DNA from: Desulfofustis sp.
GTDB lineage: Bacteria; Desulfobacterota; Desulfobulbia; Desulfobulbales; Desulfocapsaceae
NCBI GenBank assembly: GCA_013042475.1
Contig: JABDQA010000223.1
Span: 1-50,717, forward strand
Reading direction: 5' to 3'
DNA length: 50,717 nt
A program made the position numbers and the translations under genes. Below are positions 15,127-40,207 of this stretch, piece after piece; the stretch's first letter is position 1, and each line of letters opens with the position of its first letter. The notes under the pieces are model-generated. The model did not search any database, was not told the DNA's origin, and worked only from the letters and a program-made list of their open reading frames with translations.

Positions 15127-17076
15127 TTAGGCAAGTTTTGTCCCCGGCTTTACTGCTGTAGACACCGATGCCAGGGTGAGGCGATCGTTGCCGTCACTAT
15201 CCTTGAACTCAGCGGTGAGCAACATCCCTTCCGAGAGGATTCCCATGAGTTTAGCCGGTTTGAGATTGGCCACGATGATAACCCTTTCGCCAACCAATTC
15301 TTCCGGCCTATAGCTCCCCGCAATACCGGATACGATGGTTCGCTCCTCCGGTGCCACTACTTTGAGTTTCAAAAGTTTAGTAGATTTCGGAACCGGCTCG
15401 GCAGCAACAATTTCAGCCACCCTGAGCTCTATATCTTTGAATTTGTCGAAGCCGATCAGTGAGTCTTTTTTTTTCGTTTCAGTCCCACCATTTTTAGTCT
15501 TTCTCGCCTGGCTCTTATGGTCAGCAGCCTGCTTTTTGACATCGATGCGTGGAAACAGGTTGTCAACCTTGCGCAGCTTTGTACCAGGGATGGACAAGCC
15601 CCAGTCGCCGCCCTGTTCAAGAGTCTGCATCATAGCACTTGCGGAGTCAATCCCCAACCCGTCCATCATTTTGGCAGCCGTCCGGGGCATCACCGGCTTA
15701 AGCAGCAAGGCCAACAGCCGTAGGCTTTCACCCAGGTTGTAGAGCACCGTCTGCAGCCGGGGCCGCATGCTGTCATCCTTGGCCAGTGACCACGGTTCAT
15801 TCTGAACGATATAGCGGTTTGCCGCGCCCACGAATTCCCACACCGCCTGGAGCCCAAGGTGAAATTTAAAATCACCCATATGAGTTCGATACGCGCCGAT
15901 CATCTCTGCGGCATTATTCTGAAGTTGATCATCCCTGTCCGTGGCGTCCGGCCCCGGCAATATCGAGGCGCAATACTTGTCAATCATCGACACAGACCTG
16001 CTGAACAGGTTACCGAGGTCATTGGCCAGATCGGCGTTGTTTCTGGCGATGATGGCACTGGAGCTGAAAGAGGCATCGAGTCCAAAAGACATCTCCCGCA
16101 GGCTGAAATAGCGGAAAGTGTCAACTCCATAATCCTGAACCAGCTGCGCGGGTTGAATTACGTTTCCCAGGCTTTTGGACATCTTGGTTTCATCAACGTT
16201 CCAATAGCCATGCACGTGAAGCTTCTTGTAAAGTGGCACCCCGGCAGCCATCAGCATGGTAGGCCAGTAGATGGCATGGGGTTTAAGAATATCCTTGGCG
16301 ATCAAATGCTCGGCGCCGGCCCAATAACGTTCGAACATTTCGCCGCCGGGAAAACCGATACCGGTCAAGTAGTTAATGAGGGCATCGAACCACACATAGG
16401 TGACGAAATTCTCATCGAACGGCAGCCTGATTCCCCAATTGAGCCTGCTGGCAGGACGGGATATGCACAAATCATCAAGGGGATCACTAAGGAAGGAGAG
16501 CACTTCGTTGCGATAGCGCTCGGGGGTGACAAACTCGGGATTGTTCTTGAGGTGGTCGATGAGCTGCTCCTGGTACCTCGACATCTTGAAAAAATAGTTC
16601 TGCTCGGTGATTTCTTTGGGCTCCACCAGGTGATCAGGACATTTGCCCTCAACCAGCTCACGCTCAATTAAAAATCTCTCACAGCCAGTGCAGTAGAGCC
16701 CGCTGTATTCATCGAAATAGATGTCGCCGCCATCATGGACGGTCTGCAGGATATGTTTGACCACCGCCACATGATCATCATCGGTGGTTCTGATAAAGCG
16801 GTCATAGTCAATATCGAGCAGCGGCCAGGTGTCCTTGAACAGGTTCGCTATCCGGTCCACATACTGGCGCGGTTCAATATTCTCCTTGGCCGCGGCCTCT
16901 ACGATTTTATCACCATGTTCATCGGTGCCGGTCTGAAACCTGACGTCATCTCCCCGGAGCTTGCAGAACCTGCTGTAGGTATCGGCTACCACCGTTGAAT
17001 AGGCATGCCCCAGATGGGGTTGGGCGTTTACATAGTAAATCGGAGTGGTGATATAGGTCGTCGCTCTCTCGCTCAT
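15127..17076 (-). CDS. metG: Methionyl-tRNA synthetase
   Basis: Charges tRNA-Met. It has the HIGH-type motif as HLGH (21-24), a zinc knuckle C129-x2-C132...C146-x2-H149, the KMSKS loop (298-302), and an anticodon-binding helical domain. After a lysine-rich linker near 540 it has a C-terminal tRNA-binding OB-fold (Trbp111-like, LRVAEIVAAEPVP to MGILSEGML), as in dimeric MetG1 forms. At 649 aa it is full length. It follows ricT by only 6 bp. Confidence 0.97.
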   Translation of the reverse strand: MSERATTYITTPIYYVNAQPHLGHAYSTVVADTYSRFCKLRGDDVRFQTGTDEHGDKIVEAAAKENIEPRQYVDRIANLFKDTWPLLDIDYDRFIRTTDDDHVAVVKHILQTVHDGGDIYFDEYSGLYCTGCERFLIERELVEGKCPDHLVEPKEITEQNYFFKMSRYQEQLIDHLKNNPEFVTPERYRNEVLSFLSDPLDDLCISRPASRLNWGIRLPFDENFVTYVWFDALINYLTGIGFPGGEMFERYWAGAEHLIAKDILKPHAIYWPTMLMAAGVPLYKKLHVHGYWNVDETKMSKSLGNVIQPAQLVQDYGVDTFRYFSLREMSFGLDASFSSSAIIARNNADLANDLGNLFSRSVSMIDKYCASILPGPDATDRDDQLQNNAAEMIGAYRTHMGDFKFHLGLQAVWEFVGAANRYIVQNEPWSLAKDDSMRPRLQTVLYNLGESLRLLALLLKPVMPRTAAKMMDGLGIDSASAMMQTLEQGGDWGLSIPGTKLRKVDNLFPRIDVKKQAADHKSQARKTKNGGTETKKKDSLIGFDKFKDIELRVAEIVAAEPVPKSTKLLKLKVVAPEERTIVSGIAGSYRPEELVGERVIIVANLKPAKLMGILSEGMLLTAEFKDSDGNDRLTLASVSTAVKPGTKLA

Positions 17077-33298: not shown

Positions 33299-34312
33299 TT
33301 ATTCATCGCTCTCTTCATCTTCAGGCCATTGACAAGGCAGCGTCTTGAAGGTCGACTCGGCTATGGGTTCGATGAATTTGACATGGACGCTGTAATCATT
33401 GTGCAGATGAAAGCCGACCTTGGTGATTTGACCTTTGATCTGAAGCGGTGCCTGCGGCCGTTCGTCAAACTCCAGAGCCAGCTCAACTTCGGCGGCGAGC
33501 AGTGCCCGGGCCGTTTCCTGCCGTGAACATTTGATATCGAAACAGAGCCCGGACTGGGAGATATCTGAAAGCCCCCCTTTGAAGCGATTCGCTCCAGGAC
33601 TGCCGTCTTTTTGCAACACCACTGCACCGGCTACGCCCGAGATTGGATGCCTCCTGGTCGAACGTCGGTCCAACTCATTGGCAGCAATCGCCTCCCCGCT
33701 TTTGCCTTGTTTACGGCAGAATTCAGCCACCTTTTCATAAAGGCCGGGATGCACCTCCTGCCATGCCTCCGCCGCACTGCGCGTCAGGCTATAGAGTTTG
33801 GTCTCCGCCTGGGTGGCAGCTGAGAGCGGGCAGAGTGATATTTCAAAAAAACTCGACTCACCGACGATATCGCCGCGCCCCAACTGGGCAGCGATCATAT
33901 TTTTTCCATCCTTACGATAAAACAGCGCCACCTTGCCATTGTCGATAAAAAACAGCCTGTTGCTGATCTTGCCCTGGACCTGCAGCAGTTTGTTGGTGTC
34001 CAGAAGTGCAGATTCCATACTGTAAAACAGCCCATTGGACTCCTCCTCAGTCAAATCTCCATAGAGAGCGTCCCACACGGCGAGATGATCTTTGTCGAGC
34101 AGTTTGGTCTTCTGATCCTCGATTATTTCCCCGGTGGACACGATCAGTTTCAGATTGACCGGGTCAATTTTGATCAATCGCTCCCGCAGCGCATCAGCTT
34201 CATTGAAGTTTCCTGCCAAAGCTGCTTTGCTAATTGCCGCCGCCAGATCGTCACTGGTTAAATTCTCCTCTACGGCCTCTGAATTCAGCTGGTTCTGTTC
34301 TTCTTTTGACAT
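33299..34312 (-). CDS. Cyclic-nucleotide-binding-fold plus PilZ domain protein
   Basis: A 337-aa cytoplasmic protein. An N-terminal helical region (about 20-85) is followed by a cNMP-binding cupin fold (about 85-200, LFFIDNGKVALFYRKDG and GDIVGESSFF). The phosphate-binding Arg expected after the GE motif is not evident (CPLSAATQAE). The C-terminal PilZ domain (about 214-320) has an intact c-di-GMP signature: RRSTRR (216-221) and D250-I-S-Q-S-G255. The frame is open upstream to 34588, but GAGGAG before the ATG at 34312 decides the start. It may read c-di-GMP; cAMP binding is doubtful. Confidence 0.85.
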   Translation of the reverse strand: MSKEEQNQLNSEAVEENLTSDDLAAAISKAALAGNFNEADALRERLIKIDPVNLKLIVSTGEIIEDQKTKLLDKDHLAVWDALYGDLTEEESNGLFYSMESALLDTNKLLQVQGKISNRLFFIDNGKVALFYRKDGKNMIAAQLGRGDIVGESSFFEISLCPLSAATQAETKLYSLTRSAAEAWQEVHPGLYEKVAEFCRKQGKSGEAIAANELDRRSTRRHPISGVAGAVVLQKDGSPGANRFKGGLSDISQSGLCFDIKCSRQETARALLAAEVELALEFDERPQAPLQIKGQITKVGFHLHNDYSVHVKFIEPIAESTFKTLPCQWPEDEESDE

Positions 34313-34427
34313 GACTGACTCCTCGGATCGATCATGAATCTGGTTGCCGAACAACTTTTGGTTATTATTGCATAAAATCTTGAAATATGTCAAAAATTCA
34401 GAAAAACATTCACTCAAGGCCGAGCCC

Positions 34428-35195
34428 ATGATTGTTGTTCTTTCATCCGCCAAGACCCAGAATTTTGCCCCTATACAGGATGTGCCGCTGTCACAGCCGC
34501 CGCTTCTCGCTAAAACAAAAGCCCTCCTGCACCGTTGCCGGGAACTGAGCGGGGAAGAGATCAAAGAAATCATGAAGGTCAGCGACAAACTGGCAGAGAG
34601 TACCTTTCAAAGATTTCTCGATTTTACCATTCCCCACCTGGAAACATCGGCAAGTCCAGCTCTTTCGACCTTCGCCGGTGACGTTTTTTCCGAAATTCAC
34701 TGGCAGGAATACCGCCGCGAGGAATTACTTCGCGCTCACGACCGAGTAAGGATACTGTCAGGGCTTTACGGCGTTTTGCGACCGCTAGATCTGATGCAGC
34801 CCTACCGTCTTGAAATGGGTTATAAACTGCAGGTCGAGTCGGCGGCCAACCTCTACGAATTCTGGACTGAAGCGGTGACGGCACAATTAAACTCTGACTT
34901 AGAGAAGACCGGCAGCAGTTGCCTAGTAAATTGCGCCTCGAAAGAGTATTTTCGCTCGATCTCTGCAGCGCAGCTTAGAGGTGCTGTGCTGACCCTGACA
35001 TTCAAACAGAAGAAGGACGGCAAAATCAGGTCAATCGCCATCTATGCCAAACGGGCCAGGGGTATGTTCGTTGACTGGTTTATCACCAACCAGGTAAATG
35101 AGGTGGATACACTCAGTAATTTCAATGGAGGAGGGTATCGATTTTCTGAGGATCTTTCTAGCGATGATGAACTGGTATTTATCACCGAGCTCTGA
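34428..35195 (+). CDS. yaaA: YaaA family protein (UPF0246, peroxide stress)
   Basis: A 255-aa protein of the YaaA/DUF328 family, linked in E. coli to limiting free iron and DNA damage during peroxide stress. Family elements: the N-terminal MIVVLSSAKT, SDKLAESTFQRF, ILSGLYGVLRPLDLMQPYRLEMG, NCASKEYFRSI and a C-terminal YAKRARGMFVDWFI. The frame is open to 34344, but the family N-terminus and AAGG place the start at 34428. Divergent from the PilZ gene (115 bp) and convergent with the protease gene (6 bp). Confidence 0.92.
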   Translation: MIVVLSSAKTQNFAPIQDVPLSQPPLLAKTKALLHRCRELSGEEIKEIMKVSDKLAESTFQRFLDFTIPHLETSASPALSTFAGDVFSEIHWQEYRREELLRAHDRVRILSGLYGVLRPLDLMQPYRLEMGYKLQVESAANLYEFWTEAVTAQLNSDLEKTGSSCLVNCASKEYFRSISAAQLRGAVLTLTFKQKKDGKIRSIAIYAKRARGMFVDWFITNQVNEVDTLSNFNGGGYRFSEDLSSDDELVFITEL

Positions 35196-35201
35196 TACGC
35201 G

Positions 35202-36386
35202 TCAATTCAGATAGTTACTGAATTCTGTCTGAGCTCGGGAAAACTTTATGGCAAACCCCAGGCCCTCGAATTTCTCAGTTATTTTTTTCTTGGTGTTCAC
35301 CCCGACGACACGGCCATCTTCGGTGACCAGCGGTCCCCCTGAATTACCAGGATAGATCTCAGCGTTTGTCTGGATATAATCGCCCCTGTTGCTGGAAATT
35401 ACTCCTGAAGTCACCGTGTTGTTAAGTTTGAGCGGAGAACCGATGGCATAGACGTCCTGGCCTAGAGTCAGCTCATTTTCATTCTGGGGACGCAGATAGG
35501 GGGTTATAAAACCATTTAGTTTCAGCAGAGCCAGGTCATAGTTTTCACTGACCCCGTAAAAAACCGCCGACTCGCGCCGGCCGTCGGCGAATACTACTTC
35601 AAATCTGTTCTGATTCGCCAGGCTTTTGTTGGCCTGATTGTACTCCCGCTGATTGCGCTTAAACTCTGTCAGCGCTGCCCGGTAGGACTGCCTCCTGGTT
35701 GAATAATCGGATTGCCACTCGTTGAAAGTCCGTTCACGCTTGTTCAGATCTGTCTTGAGTTCAGCTTTTTGCTGGGGACTTATCTCCTCGCGATTATCGG
35801 TCATGGCCTGCCCCAGGCGAATCCTGTAATCTTCCAGCCTTTTCCTGTAGTTTTCTATCCTTATGCGTTCCTGATCGAGGCTGGTCTGTAATTTATTCAG
35901 GCGCTGGGCGGCCTCACTCATATTTTCCCTGACTTTCCTGTCAACCTCCTGACTGCCTCGTACCACATGCCGATTGGTAACGATCAGCCCATCGTTGGAA
36001 ATAAAGAATCCAGATCCATATCCCGCTTCGGTGACGATGGTGACCACTGCCAGGTTAGCCATCTCGATGGGAGTGGATGGGGCGAGTTTTTCGCTCAAGG
36101 CCTGCTCCAGATCAGTGCCATCGGCAGCACCGCCGGGAGTTTGCAGTTGAGAAGATGGAACCGGACTCCGGGCGGCAGGCAATCGATCATAAATTATCTT
36201 TTCGACATCGGAAAGATCTATGGTGATCGTGCCGCCAAATTGTTGATAGCTCAATCGGGAGTCTTTTCTTATGATTGAATCGGTGTGGATAATCCTGCCA
36301 TCCTTCAAGTGCAATTCGTGCGAGACTGCTGCGCTCGGCGATGCCAGCAGGAAGAAGTACAGGCTGAGAACCAGAATCAATCGCAT
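35202..36386 (-). CDS. Secreted trypsin-like serine protease with coiled-coil insertion
   Basis: A signal peptide (about 1-20, cleavage near SAA) precedes a small beta segment (about 24-66, LHLKDGRIIHT...) and a linker. An HtrA-like trypsin fold follows: GSGFFISNDGLIVTNRH (His140), DLALLK (Asp284) and GNSGGP (Ser349). Between His and Asp, residues about 146-258 are an Arg/Lys/Glu/Gln-rich predicted coiled coil that HtrA proteases lack. There is no PDZ domain. It should act in the periplasm or outside the cell. A TATACT-type -10 lies just upstream (36434 region), so it probably has its own promoter. Confidence 0.85.
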   Translation of the reverse strand: MRLILVLSLYFFLLASPSAAVSHELHLKDGRIIHTDSIIRKDSRLSYQQFGGTITIDLSDVEKIIYDRLPAARSPVPSSQLQTPGGAADGTDLEQALSEKLAPSTPIEMANLAVVTIVTEAGYGSGFFISNDGLIVTNRHVVRGSQEVDRKVRENMSEAAQRLNKLQTSLDQERIRIENYRKRLEDYRIRLGQAMTDNREEISPQQKAELKTDLNKRERTFNEWQSDYSTRRQSYRAALTEFKRNQREYNQANKSLANQNRFEVVFADGRRESAVFYGVSENYDLALLKLNGFITPYLRPQNENELTLGQDVYAIGSPLKLNNTVTSGVISSNRGDYIQTNAEIYPGNSGGPLVTEDGRVVGVNTKKKITEKFEGLGFAIKFSRAQTEFSNYLN

Positions 36387-36473: not shown

Positions 36474-37091
36474 TTAAAGCAGGTATTTGATCAGTACGAA
36501 CCCGCCAATCAGAAGGATCATGAAGGCAATGGAAAGAATGTTAAAATATTTGTCGATAAAATTTTTCATTGGCGCTCCAAACTTCCAGATAATGGCGGCG
36601 ACAAGAAAAAAACGGGCCGAGCGCGACACCAGCGAGGCGATTACGAAAGTGAAAAAGTTTATCTCAAATGCCCCTGCGGTAATAGTAAACAGCTTGTATG
36701 GCAGAGGAGTAAAGCCTGCTGTCCCTACCGCCCAGGCATCATATTTCTGGTAAAGATTCTGGACACTGAGATATTTATCTTCAAGTCCGTACCAGCCAAT
36801 GATCTGCTGTCCCAATGACTCCATGAACCAGAGGCCAAGGCAGTAGCCGAACATGCCTCCAAGCACAGATCCGGCGGCACACACCGCTGCGTACTTGAAA
36901 GCGCGGGTAGGTGCGGCAATGCACATGGCAATCAGAAAAACGTCAGGCGGAATCGGGAAGAAGGATGACTCGACGAAGGCAATGATGAATAGGGTCCAGA
37001 CGCCATAGGGCCCGGCAATCCATTCCATGCAATAATCATAGAGCCGTTTCAGAGGGCCGTTGGCCGTCCCTGTGGTACTATTTCCAGCCAT
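36474..37091 (-). CDS. YqaA-type DedA/VTT membrane protein
   Basis: A 205-aa inner-membrane protein with the VTT (SNARE-associated/DedA) fold: FVESSFFPIPPDVFLIAM, a conserved GGMFGYCLG, and AGFTPLPYKLFTITAGAFEINFFTFVIASLVSR. These features mark the YqaA branch. DedA-like proteins have been connected to recycling of undecaprenyl phosphate and membrane lipids. It overlaps the end of pcm by 14 bp, so it is in the lipoprotein-pcm-yqaA operon. Confidence 0.92.
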   Translation of the reverse strand: MAGNSTTGTANGPLKRLYDYCMEWIAGPYGVWTLFIIAFVESSFFPIPPDVFLIAMCIAAPTRAFKYAAVCAAGSVLGGMFGYCLGLWFMESLGQQIIGWYGLEDKYLSVQNLYQKYDAWAVGTAGFTPLPYKLFTITAGAFEINFFTFVIASLVSRSARFFLVAAIIWKFGAPMKNFIDKYFNILSIAFMILLIGGFVLIKYLL

Positions 37092-37722
37092 GCTCCCCGA
37101 CCAGATCTACGAATCTCACTTTTTCAAGCTCTTTGATCTGCACCTCGTCTTCCTTTTTCTCAAGCAATTGCAGCACCTGCAGATGCTGATCACCAACCGG
37201 AATTACCAGTCGTCCACCTTCTTCGAGCTGGTCGATCAGAGGCTCGGGAACATCTGGGCCGCCTGCAGTGACAATGATTGCATCGTAAGGACCGTGCTCG
37301 GGCCAGCCCAGGGTTCCATCGTCAAGTTTGGCCACGATGTTGAAGTATCTCAGCTGGTCAAATACTCTGCGCGCCCCGGCCAGCAGTAGATTTATACGCT
37401 CAACCGTGTAAACCTGGCTGCAGAGTCTGGAAAGGATTGCCGCCTGATACCCGGAACCGGTTCCCACTTCCAGAACCCGCTCCGATCCAGTGAGTTTCAG
37501 CGCCTCTGTCATCAACGCGACAATGTAAGGTTGGGAAATCGTCTGACCGGCCGAGATGGGCAGGGGAAAGTCCCCGTAGGCCCTGGACTGCAGGGCATCA
37601 TCGACAAAACAGTGGCGCGGCACTGCACGCATGGCTTCGATCACCTGCGGGTCAGAAATGCCTCGCGGAATAAGCTGTTCCTGCACCATCCGGTCACGAA
37701 TGGTTGCGAATCTGTCATTCAC
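37078..37722 (-). CDS. pcm: Protein-L-isoaspartate O-methyltransferase
   Basis: An SAM-dependent repair enzyme acting on isoaspartyl residues. The family motifs VPRHCFV, ISAGQTISQPYIVALMTEAL, VLEVGTGSGYQAAIL (SAM site) and YDAIIVTAGGPDVP are present. At 214 aa the length is normal. It begins with GTG at 37722, 5 bp after the lipoprotein gene stop; an ATG at 37689 would cut into the conserved N-terminus. Confidence 0.96.
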   Translation of the reverse strand: MNDRFATIRDRMVQEQLIPRGISDPQVIEAMRAVPRHCFVDDALQSRAYGDFPLPISAGQTISQPYIVALMTEALKLTGSERVLEVGTGSGYQAAILSRLCSQVYTVERINLLLAGARRVFDQLRYFNIVAKLDDGTLGWPEHGPYDAIIVTAGGPDVPEPLIDQLEEGGRLVIPVGDQHLQVLQLLEKKEDEVQIKELEKVRFVDLVGEHGWK

Positions 37723-37727
37723 TCTCG

Positions 37728-38105
37728 TTACTCTTTCCCGGCCTTGTCACGTTCCCGCTCGAACTCGCCGGTCTCGGAGGCGTTATACTGAATATCGGTG
37801 ACCATCTCGCCATCGAAAGTGACGATAATCCGGCTGACGCTTTGAGGACCAAACCATCTGCCTACGTATAATGTCCGCTGTGCCGTAGAAAGATGCTCTT
37901 CGTAATAAAGCCAGCGCTCAGCCCCAGCCTCTGTTTCCTGTCGTTCATCGGGATCGCCGAGATAGGTCAGCACATCCGTTTTGGTCGATGCCCCGGGACT
38001 GATCAGACTGGCGTCAGAAGCCAGATGTCTAACCGGTTCGTGGACACACCCGGACAACAGGATGGCTCCAAGGCTTACCAAGACAAACCATTTCACCATC
38101 GACAT
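37728..38105 (-). CDS. SmpA/OmlA (BamE)-like lipoprotein
   Basis: A 125-aa protein with a lipoprotein signal peptide and lipobox LLSGC (Cys20). The mature domain contains TKTDVLTYLGDPDERQE and WLYYEEH, as in SmpA/OmlA/BamE-fold lipoproteins. BamE belongs to the Bam machinery, whose central subunit BamA is encoded at 45 kb. The assignment to BamE itself is only a fold match. The ATG at 38105 has GGAG 6 nt upstream; an open frame above it lacks signal-peptide features. First gene of the operon with pcm. Confidence 0.8.
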   Translation of the reverse strand: MSMVKWFVLVSLGAILLSGCVHEPVRHLASDASLISPGASTKTDVLTYLGDPDERQETEAGAERWLYYEEHLSTAQRTLYVGRWFGPQSVSRIIVTFDGEMVTDIQYNASETGEFERERDKAGKE

Positions 38106-38210
38106 AATATCTCCAAAGAATTCCTCTCCCTGTCTTCCCGACACGACGCATGCGTGTTCGTACTGAATTGTGATTCGTTAGCCCCGCCGGGCAGAATAGC
38201 AAACATATGC

Positions 38211-38332: not shown

Positions 38333-40207
38333 TTAGTCAACTGCCTTCTGCAAAATCCTGTAATTGCGCTCCACCATTTCCAGGGGGTCAACCGTCAGAC
38401 CCGCCTGAATCATTGCGTTGTCGTAGATCTGTAAAGCAACCTCAGCAGCGAAGCTTTCATCCGAATCAACCAGATCGGCCAGTTTGCAGATAAGCGCGTT
38501 GGCGGTATTTATCTCGAGGTTCTTTTTGGAGATCTCGCCAGTCAGCCCCTTTTCCATCCGACCGACGGCCATGACCCGCTCCATCGAAGAAGTCATGAAC
38601 CCGTCTGGATTGACAATCATCGCTGGAGAATCGACGAGACGGGAAGATATGGAAACATCGGCAACTTTGTCGTTCAAGGTCTTCTTCATCCAGCTTATCA
38701 ATTCCTCGCCTCGTTTTTCATCGAGCGCCTGATCATTTTCGTCCTGCGGGGCGTCCCTGTTCTCGCCTTTATCGTCGAGTGATAAGTCGGCTCGGTCGGC
38801 GGAAACAAACTTCTTTCCCTCGTAGTCCGCCAGATGGCTGAGTACGAAATCGTCGATCGGTTCAGTGGTGTAAATGATTTCAATGTCCTTCTTTTTGAAC
38901 ATCTCGACGTACGGACCAGCCTCTATCGCCGTCCTGCTTGGTCCGTTTATGTAATAGATCTCTTCCTGATCCGGCCCCAATCTCAGCAGATACTCGTCAA
39001 GGCCAATAGGGATCGATTCCTTTGATTTTGATGACTCGAACCGCAACAATTTACCGAGTTCGCCGCGAAATTCAAAATCGCTGGCCACACCTTCCTTGAG
39101 ATAGATGCCAAAGGTCTCCCAGAACTTCAGATACGATTCCTCGTCCTTCTTAGCCTCTTCGGCCAGGAATTTGAGAAACCGCTTGGTGATAACCTTTCTG
39201 ATTTTGGCCACCAGGGCATTGTCCTGCAGGGCCTGCCGGGAGATATTGAGCGGCAGATCCTCGCTATCGACAACCCCTTTGAGGAATCTGAGCCACTCGG
39301 GCAGGATCGTTTCTGAATGCTGGTCGATGAGAATTCGTTTACAGTAGAGGTTGACTCCGGGGCTGACCCGGCCAAATCCCATGATTTCGAAATTTTCCTT
39401 GGGGACGAACAGCAGCGAATTGATGGCCAGGGGAGCGTCGGTGGAAAAATGAAGCTGGTAGGTCGGTTCATCAGCAGCATTGGCAATGAATTTATAAAAC
39501 TCGAGGTATTCCTCGTCTTCGATTTCGGCTTTATTCCTGGTCCACAGGGCTTGGACGGTGTTGACCGTCTCTCCTTCCAATTTGATGGGAAATGGCACGA
39601 AAGCGGAATATTGCTTGATGATTGATTCCACTTTCCATTTCTTGGCGTAATCCTCACATCCTTCTTTCAGCGCGATGATAATCTTGGTGCCTCGATGTAG
39701 GCCGGGACACTCGCTGATATCAAATGAACCGGTACCGTCGGATGACCACTCATGCCCCTCCGAGCCGTCCCAGGAACGACTTTGAACCCTTACCTTGGCG
39801 CCAGCCATAAAGGCAGAGTAGAAGCCGACACCAAACTGGCCGATGAGGCTGACATCTTTGCGCGCCGCCTCCGCCAGTTCGGCAAGAAAGCTGTTCGAAC
39901 CGGAATGGGCGATGGTGCCGAGATCGGCGATAAGCTCATCACCGGTCATGCCAATACCAGTATCGGCAATGGTCAGCTCTTTCCTCTCTTCATCAAGATC
40001 GATGGAGATCTCAAGCGGCACGTGGGAGTCAAAAAGATCTTCCTGATCCCTGGTCAAACTTTCATGCCGGTATTTTTCCAACGCGTCCGCCGCGTTCGAT
40101 ATTAGCTCTCTGACGAACACATCCCGCTCGGTGTAGAGCGAGTTGATGACAATATCGAGTAATTTTTTCGTTTCTGCTTGAAATTCATGGGTTGTTGCGC
40201 TGCTCAT
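38333..40207 (-). CDS. htpG: Chaperone HtpG (Hsp90 family)
   Basis: A 624-aa Hsp90. N-terminal GHKL ATPase with ELISNAADALEK, ADTGIGMT and GQFGVGFYSAFM, then middle and C-terminal dimerisation domains. Start ATG has AGAGGT upstream. I find no CIRCE element or clear sigma32 promoter upstream; the upstream gap does contain several small hairpins. Confidence 0.97.
   Translation of the reverse strand: MSSATTHEFQAETKKLLDIVINSLYTERDVFVRELISNAADALEKYRHESLTRDQEDLFDSHVPLEISIDLDEERKELTIADTGIGMTGDELIADLGTIAHSGSNSFLAELAEAARKDVSLIGQFGVGFYSAFMAGAKVRVQSRSWDGSEGHEWSSDGTGSFDISECPGLHRGTKIIIALKEGCEDYAKKWKVESIIKQYSAFVPFPIKLEGETVNTVQALWTRNKAEIEDEEYLEFYKFIANAADEPTYQLHFSTDAPLAINSLLFVPKENFEIMGFGRVSPGVNLYCKRILIDQHSETILPEWLRFLKGVVDSEDLPLNISRQALQDNALVAKIRKVITKRFLKFLAEEAKKDEESYLKFWETFGIYLKEGVASDFEFRGELGKLLRFESSKSKESIPIGLDEYLLRLGPDQEEIYYINGPSRTAIEAGPYVEMFKKKDIEIIYTTEPIDDFVLSHLADYEGKKFVSADRADLSLDDKGENRDAPQDENDQALDEKRGEELISWMKKTLNDKVADVSISSRLVDSPAMIVNPDGFMTSSMERVMAVGRMEKGLTGEISKKNLEINTANALICKLADLVDSDESFAAEVALQIYDNAMIQAGLTVDPLEMVERNYRILQKAVD

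Follow-up and report, generated by a model that had tools for sequence, protein, structure and literature searches.

Protease gene and gene neighborhood

The window (the whole 50,717-nucleotide stretch of Desulfofustis sp. DNA analyzed here) encodes, on its reverse strand, a secreted serine protease of the HtrA/S1C type that is PDZ-less, has an intact catalytic triad, and carries a long insertion between the catalytic histidine and aspartate. Its gene is the last in a single-strand run, after htpG, a gene for a BamE-like protein, pcm, and a DedA gene. The features of the protease and of the run are:

35202..36386, minus strand: hairpin protease coding sequence, 394 aa, stop included (ORF listing)
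36321..36386, minus strand: Sec-type signal peptide, residues 1-22; cleavage set by eye before the invariant His23-Glu24 (sequence, alignment)
36183..36320, minus strand: N-terminal beta unit, residues 23-68 (HELHLKDGRIIHT...); modeled with six strands, motif in 13/13 type A sequences (see below)
36117..36182, minus strand: linker, residues 69-90; low confidence (pLDDT <50 at mature residues 47-64) and fast-evolving
35952..36116, minus strand: protease domain part one, residues 91-145, with catalytic His140 (35967-35969); Pfam, alignment, model
35796..35951, minus strand: hairpin arm 1, residues 146-197; model helix and heptad period
35778..35795, minus strand: hairpin turn, residues 198-203; six residues in the model
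35613..35777, minus strand: hairpin arm 2, residues 204-258; model helix and heptad period
35205..35612, minus strand: protease domain part two, residues 259-394, with Asp284 (35535-35537), Ser349 (35340-35342), and a shortened L3 segment with T324, R334, and Q339
36474..37091, minus strand: DedA/VTT-domain membrane protein, directly upstream after a gap of 87 nt; Pfam VTT_dom E 5.5e-12; same order in relatives
37078..37722, minus strand: pcm, protein-L-isoaspartate methyltransferase; Pfam PCMT E 7.5e-64
37728..38144, minus strand: small BamE-like putative lipoprotein; weak Pfam BamE match (E 0.0082), under cut-off
38333..40207, minus strand: an ORF that we take from its sequence to be htpG (Hsp90); likely first in the run

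A promoter-like site lies at 40321-40294; because promoter and terminator matches are no better than chance, we only infer that the run is an operon. The sequence-only reading of this DNA had proposed synteny of homologs as a check. Among the nine Desulfofustis-like loci (the window and L038-L045), htpG is found upstream in 9/9, pcm in 8/9, and DedA in 7/9, as called by our own ORF script, which overlooked the BamE-like gene of the window; the run is thus kept in this clade, but the htpG/pcm run is missing from all four of the other type A loci (L046-L049). Outside the clade, a divergent htpG (L051:1093-3015; 35% identical to that of the window) is located directly upstream of a type C hairpin protease. 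A similar linkage at L052 was dropped as a mere weak 29% match. On the other side of the protease gene, and on its strand, positions 33299-34588 encode a protein that pairs a cyclic-nucleotide-binding domain with PilZ at its C-terminus; yaaA lies between the two genes on the opposite strand.

Protease core and inserted hairpin

The catalytic residues are where the sequence-only reading had placed them, at His140, Asp284, and Ser349 (GNSGG), and are invariant in a nine-row alignment of close relatives. The Pfam Trypsin_2 match (E 9.4e-32) is split into two stretches, the best of which begins at residue 254. Also as claimed, the window protein has no Pfam PDZ match at E<=1, whereas L002 and L003, the two ordinary HtrA paralogs from the same genome that were scanned, do; ordinary HtrA proteins among the other matches in this genome are L002, L003, and L004. 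The Do/HtrA models of NCBIfam fall far short of their cut-offs, with the Do-family model TIGR02037 at 125.8 bits vs 416.2 bits. Another protein of this genome with a trypsin-like domain is L005 (G000:C30, around 15629-15766), an ORF of about 1000 aa that, by eye, has a protein-kinase-like N-terminus, a membrane helix, the trypsin-like domain, and a repeat-like C-terminus.

An AlphaFold2 model of mature residues 23-394, computed with 46 aligned sequences as input, has a mean pLDDT of 89 and a pTM of 0.72. It ends with the last strand of the protease followed by a short helix, with nothing beyond. The additional N-terminal beta unit noticed in the sequence is modeled as six strands (mature residues 2-43) behind the Sec-type signal. 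The core aligns with DegS, DegP, and HtrA1, with a best Z of 25.6 to DegS (rmsd 2.2, 177/372 residues aligned; Foldseek, VIA-align). The inserted block (pLDDT 86-98) has the bounds given by the sequence-only reading, residues 146-258. It is predicted to form two helices, numbered 124-175 and 182-236 in the mature protein and 146-197 and 204-258 in the precursor, with a six-residue turn between them. A second AlphaFold2 job headed by L050, a DUF4124-type relative with 38% identity, again gave a hairpin, whose helices span 47 and 55 residues. This job is only partly independent of the first, since the window protein and four other type A rows were included in its alignment.

Both arms of the window protein have a heptad period of 3.5, and 2 and 0 of 5000 shuffles, respectively, equaled the observed power. 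The family profiles of all three types (A, B, and C) peak at a hydrophobic period of 3.46-3.54, and the signal is weakest in arm 2 of type C (p 0.037). The predicted helix pair and the 3.5-residue heptads together argue for an antiparallel coiled-coil hairpin, as had been suggested from the letters alone, and its position and length are conserved in relatives. The 46-row alignment A2 has recurrent mid-arm residues, with L184 in 91% and W224 in 52% of its rows. The net charge of the insert spans -7 to +13 across 83 rows; a basic, Skp-like client surface is therefore not a family trait. We infer that the arm would project from the active-site rim only because it directly follows the helix of the catalytic histidine; given a pTM of 0.72, the model leaves the direction of the arm free.

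The segment containing loop L3 runs from the start of the S-G strand to Q(T)NA. It comprises 12 residues in type A (13/13) and type C (50/50), 16-18 in type B, and 20-24 in ordinary HtrA (16/18 rows measured; two gave no length). According to PMC5666011, the PDZ signal in DegS is routed via L3, and T176, R187, and Q200 of DegP relay activation between protomers. The path that the PDZ signal takes in DegS is thereby reduced along with the PDZ domain itself. The activation cluster is retained in the window copy as T324, R334, and Q339, with the arginine one place earlier than that of DegP when read ungapped; T/S, R, and Q are kept in type A (13/13), and T, R, and Q in type B (20/20). This retention speaks for a trimer. 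In type C (L050-L100 and L103), the activation arginine is lost in 44/50 and the glutamine in 25/50, which suggests that the activation relay of type C is altered; owing to these losses, a common trimer relay does not hold for the family as a whole.

Relatives, descent, and known similarities

Homologs with E<=1e-20 were found in 31 of the 58 genomes searched, including that of the window. In a scan of genome contigs, the best 80 of 173 loci comprised hairpin-bearing loci or fragments (L038-L103) and ordinary HtrA (L104-L117); a further 20 zinc-ribbon-type sequences (L018-L037) were drawn from the genomes of relatives. Three subgroups make up the 83 measured rows (13 type A, 20 type B, 50 type C), with the fragments L099, L101, and L102, as well as L083, in which the motif was not found, left out of the length counts. 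Alignments A2-A4 were thinned by hand for size and redundancy to 46, 35, and 46 rows, and L042 was excluded from A2, since its start motif was not found.

The protease-hairpin unit is constant, and the N-terminal module varies by subgroup. Type A, found in the Desulfofustis clade and in cable-bacteria relatives, has the N-terminal beta unit in 13/13 by motif check. Its His-Asp spacing is 144 residues in eight sequences, the window protein among them, 142 in three, 140 in one, and 117 in one. Type C has a DUF4124-like N-terminus in 50/50 by the same kind of check (Pfam on its own assigns DUF4124 to 17 of the 46 A2 rows) and a spacing of 137 in 37, 138 in 10, 136 in two, and 126 in one. The loop had been described as short in HtrA proteases, and the spacing is indeed 30-31 residues in 8/14 ordinary HtrA loci, those in which the motif could be located; the catalytic pair of Streptococcus pneumoniae HtrA is H122-D152 (PMC12745498). 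Type B (L018-L037) belongs to the same order and family as the window; 19/20 sequences have an N-terminal CPxC...ECxxC zinc ribbon by motif check, which is followed by a hydrophobic, membrane-type helical stretch, and the spacing is strictly 108 in 20/20. Type B could possibly be a signaling protease that acts from cytoplasm to periplasm.

A tree was built on the columns of the protease core, with the insert removed, from the 83 hairpin rows and 18 ordinary HtrA rows. A 100/99 branch separates the two sets; types A and B are each set apart by a starred branch, and type C requires two changes. The simplest reading of this tree, with its 18 ordinary rows and some long branches, is a single origin of the arm followed by exchange of the N-terminal module, although with an ordinary sample of this size more than one origin is conceivable.

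The insert-spanning profile A4 matches 60/146 genomes of the order of the window at E<=1e-40, and all of the 62 matches listed there cover nearly the whole profile, except that in G150. In a phylum-wide sample, in which at most eight candidates were scored per genome, 10/297 genomes match, two of them over the core only. Around one of the genomes from another lineage of the phylum (G391), 21/116 genomes in its order and 42/192 in its class match at 1e-50; the match in G528, which is part of both sets, is limited to 107-273. The named hosts include Desulfofustis, Candidatus Electrothrix, Desulfosarcina, Desulfatitalea, Syntrophaceae, and Competibacteraceae. Two genomes encode divergent second copies (G142:C1:1094906-1095646 and G156:C1:726963-727703; E ~1e-48) alongside a copy of type A length.

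Compared with its two closest relatives, the window protein is 53-57% identical in the insert vs 80-86% in the core; across four close relatives, identity in the linker is 9-27%. Because synonymous changes are saturated or close to it, we compared dN alone rather than dN/dS: against the two closest relatives it is 0.30-0.32 for the insert, 0.86-0.99 for the linker, and 0.07-0.16 for the two parts of the core. The values indicate that the arm is under constraint, weaker than that on the core. The two outcomes that the sequence-only reading had named as refuting its idea can be set aside. Disordered filler in a single strain is contradicted by the high-confidence model of two helices, the heptads, and the conserved spacing in relatives, and a segment lying outside the protease fold in homologs by its location between His and Asp in 83/83 measured rows.

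Among the structure matches listed by Foldseek, VIA-align, and the search of the family profile against the PDB, there is no hairpin-bearing chain. The profile search yielded 101 PDB sequences at E<=1e-8; none of the 60 listed carries the hairpin, the best stretches all start past it, none earlier than profile position 139. The single printed alignment jumps over profile positions 35-140. The BFVD structure search returned generic protease matches, headed by a 407-aa protease labeled Podoviridae (rmsd 12.8). Common descent of the arm with ExoVII, OmpH, or SMC was rejected, as these are weak coiled-coil-to-coiled-coil matches, all under the cut-offs of Pfam and NCBIfam. A defense role was likewise rejected, since the PADLOC matches reflect the protease fold and coiled coil only and no defense context was seen, as was a phage or plasmid origin of the gene, for no entry among 50,697 phage and 72,556 plasmid records spans 80% of the protein; a Rhizobium plasmid match that seemingly spanned the insert turned out to be an ordinary HtrA. 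In the open-licence literature, no publication describing such an insertion was found by title or the beginning of the abstract, and the text of PMC11535027 contains no match to it.

Possible roles of the hairpin and comparison with known systems

The gene run combines a chaperone (htpG), protein repair (pcm), and a protease. We tentatively propose a periplasmic protease for envelope quality control in which the modeled hairpin would substitute for PDZ in substrate handling and control, at a probability of roughly 40%. The hairpin of ~113 residues, in the loop after the catalytic His, would be the element of substrate handling and control: at the active-site rim it could bind or funnel unfolded clients, or else block the cleft until a client binds. 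The protease core would assemble as the usual HtrA trimer, giving three arms on a Skp-like body to bring clients to three active sites, and the N-terminal module would determine location or sensing. Against this reading, the insert evolves faster than the core and varies in net charge, type C has mostly lost the activation arginine and in half of its sequences the glutamine, and the htpG/pcm context is restricted to the Desulfofustis-like clade, apart from the htpG beside L051. A bolder version, which we consider unlikely, is a tentacled protease whose trimer arms would make a Skp-like cage over the active sites, such that one chain both holds and cuts; here the arms would replace PDZ and L3, and the N-terminal sensors would be exchangeable, with one reading the cytoplasm through the zinc ribbon and membrane helix.

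Docking is a frequent role of antiparallel coiled coils, and the hairpin might instead bind a specific partner (an envelope complex or the arm of another molecule), thereby anchoring the protease or building oligomers with no contact to substrate. The near-fixed length within each subgroup and the recurrent mid-arm L184 and W224 fit a specific contact, and the arm persists while the N-terminal module changes; however, a segment that immediately follows the catalytic His is likely to affect the active site, and no candidate partner gene is conserved beside the protease across subgroups. On balance we rate docking somewhat below substrate handling.

We give still less credence to an autoinhibitory gate, in which the arm would lie over the cleft and limit entry until displaced by tension, a ligand, or a client, with the N-terminal module as sensor. 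The 60-loop of thrombin is a comparison for such a gating insertion. The insertion does sit in the loop following the catalytic His, the L3/PDZ route is reduced in types A and C, and the N-terminal module is swapped among subgroups, with a zinc ribbon and a membrane-type helix in 19/20 type B sequences, but a contact between arm and cleft has no direct sign and an arm of 50 residues far exceeds the needs of a lid. A neutral insertion tolerated in an ordinary HtrA would agree with the lower identity of the insert relative to the core, but is highly improbable given that 83 measured sequences from several families, including the Competibacteraceae, keep the insert at one position and with near-constant length, that it has heptads, and that the core-only tree is compatible with one origin.

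Returning to the proposed quality-control protease, the window protein is like DegS, DegP, and HtrA1 (MEROPS S1C) in its core fold, GNSGG motif, catalytic triad, and T-R-Q residues; unlike them, it is PDZ-less, has a His-Asp spacing of 144 vs 30-31 and a shorter L3, and scores under the Do-family cut-off. A large helical addition to a chymotrypsin fold is also found in peptidase S46 (DPP7/DPP11), although there the helices are placed between Asp and Ser; the best stretch of the S46 Pfam match to the window protein is the His motif only (116-146). HtrA/Deg proteins have 0-3 PDZ domains each (PMC3640471). Most possess at least one, and the absence of PDZ does not disqualify a protein from this family, since Arabidopsis Deg5 is PDZ-less too. 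Like the window protein, Deg5 is an HtrA protease without PDZ and hence needs other control; unlike it, Deg5 is a protein of the chloroplast lumen, and the available text describes no inserted hairpin (PMC3640471).

In form, the predicted arm resembles that of Skp/OmpH, set on an HtrA body. According to PMC7577714 and PMC8573040, the body of Skp is a beta-structured trimer; a coiled-coil arm of two helices extends from each protomer, and the arms form a cavity for unfolded proteins. Skp and, by prediction, the window protein share a periplasmic location and a two-helix coiled-coil arm on a small beta body, the trimer being shown for Skp and inferred here; unlike Skp, which is not a protease and has a nine-strand trimer barrel with three strands from each protomer, the window protein has a protease double barrel as its body. 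The OmpH score is 21.5 bits vs a gathering score of 32.4, no better than those of other coiled coils (Pfam), and the resemblance is one of form, not descent.

A domain layout that had no annotation is thereby added for Desulfobulbales-type and Desulfobacterales-type bacteria and for some gammaproteobacteria, and the membrane-spanning zinc-ribbon version could relay a signal across the inner membrane. HtrA proteases are the classic example of envelope quality control under PDZ regulation. The subfamily described here, absent from the structures and literature searched, lacks PDZ and has a shortened sensor loop and a conserved arm by the catalytic His. With it, one can ask cleanly whether the capture of substrates and activation can shift to another loop of the same fold.
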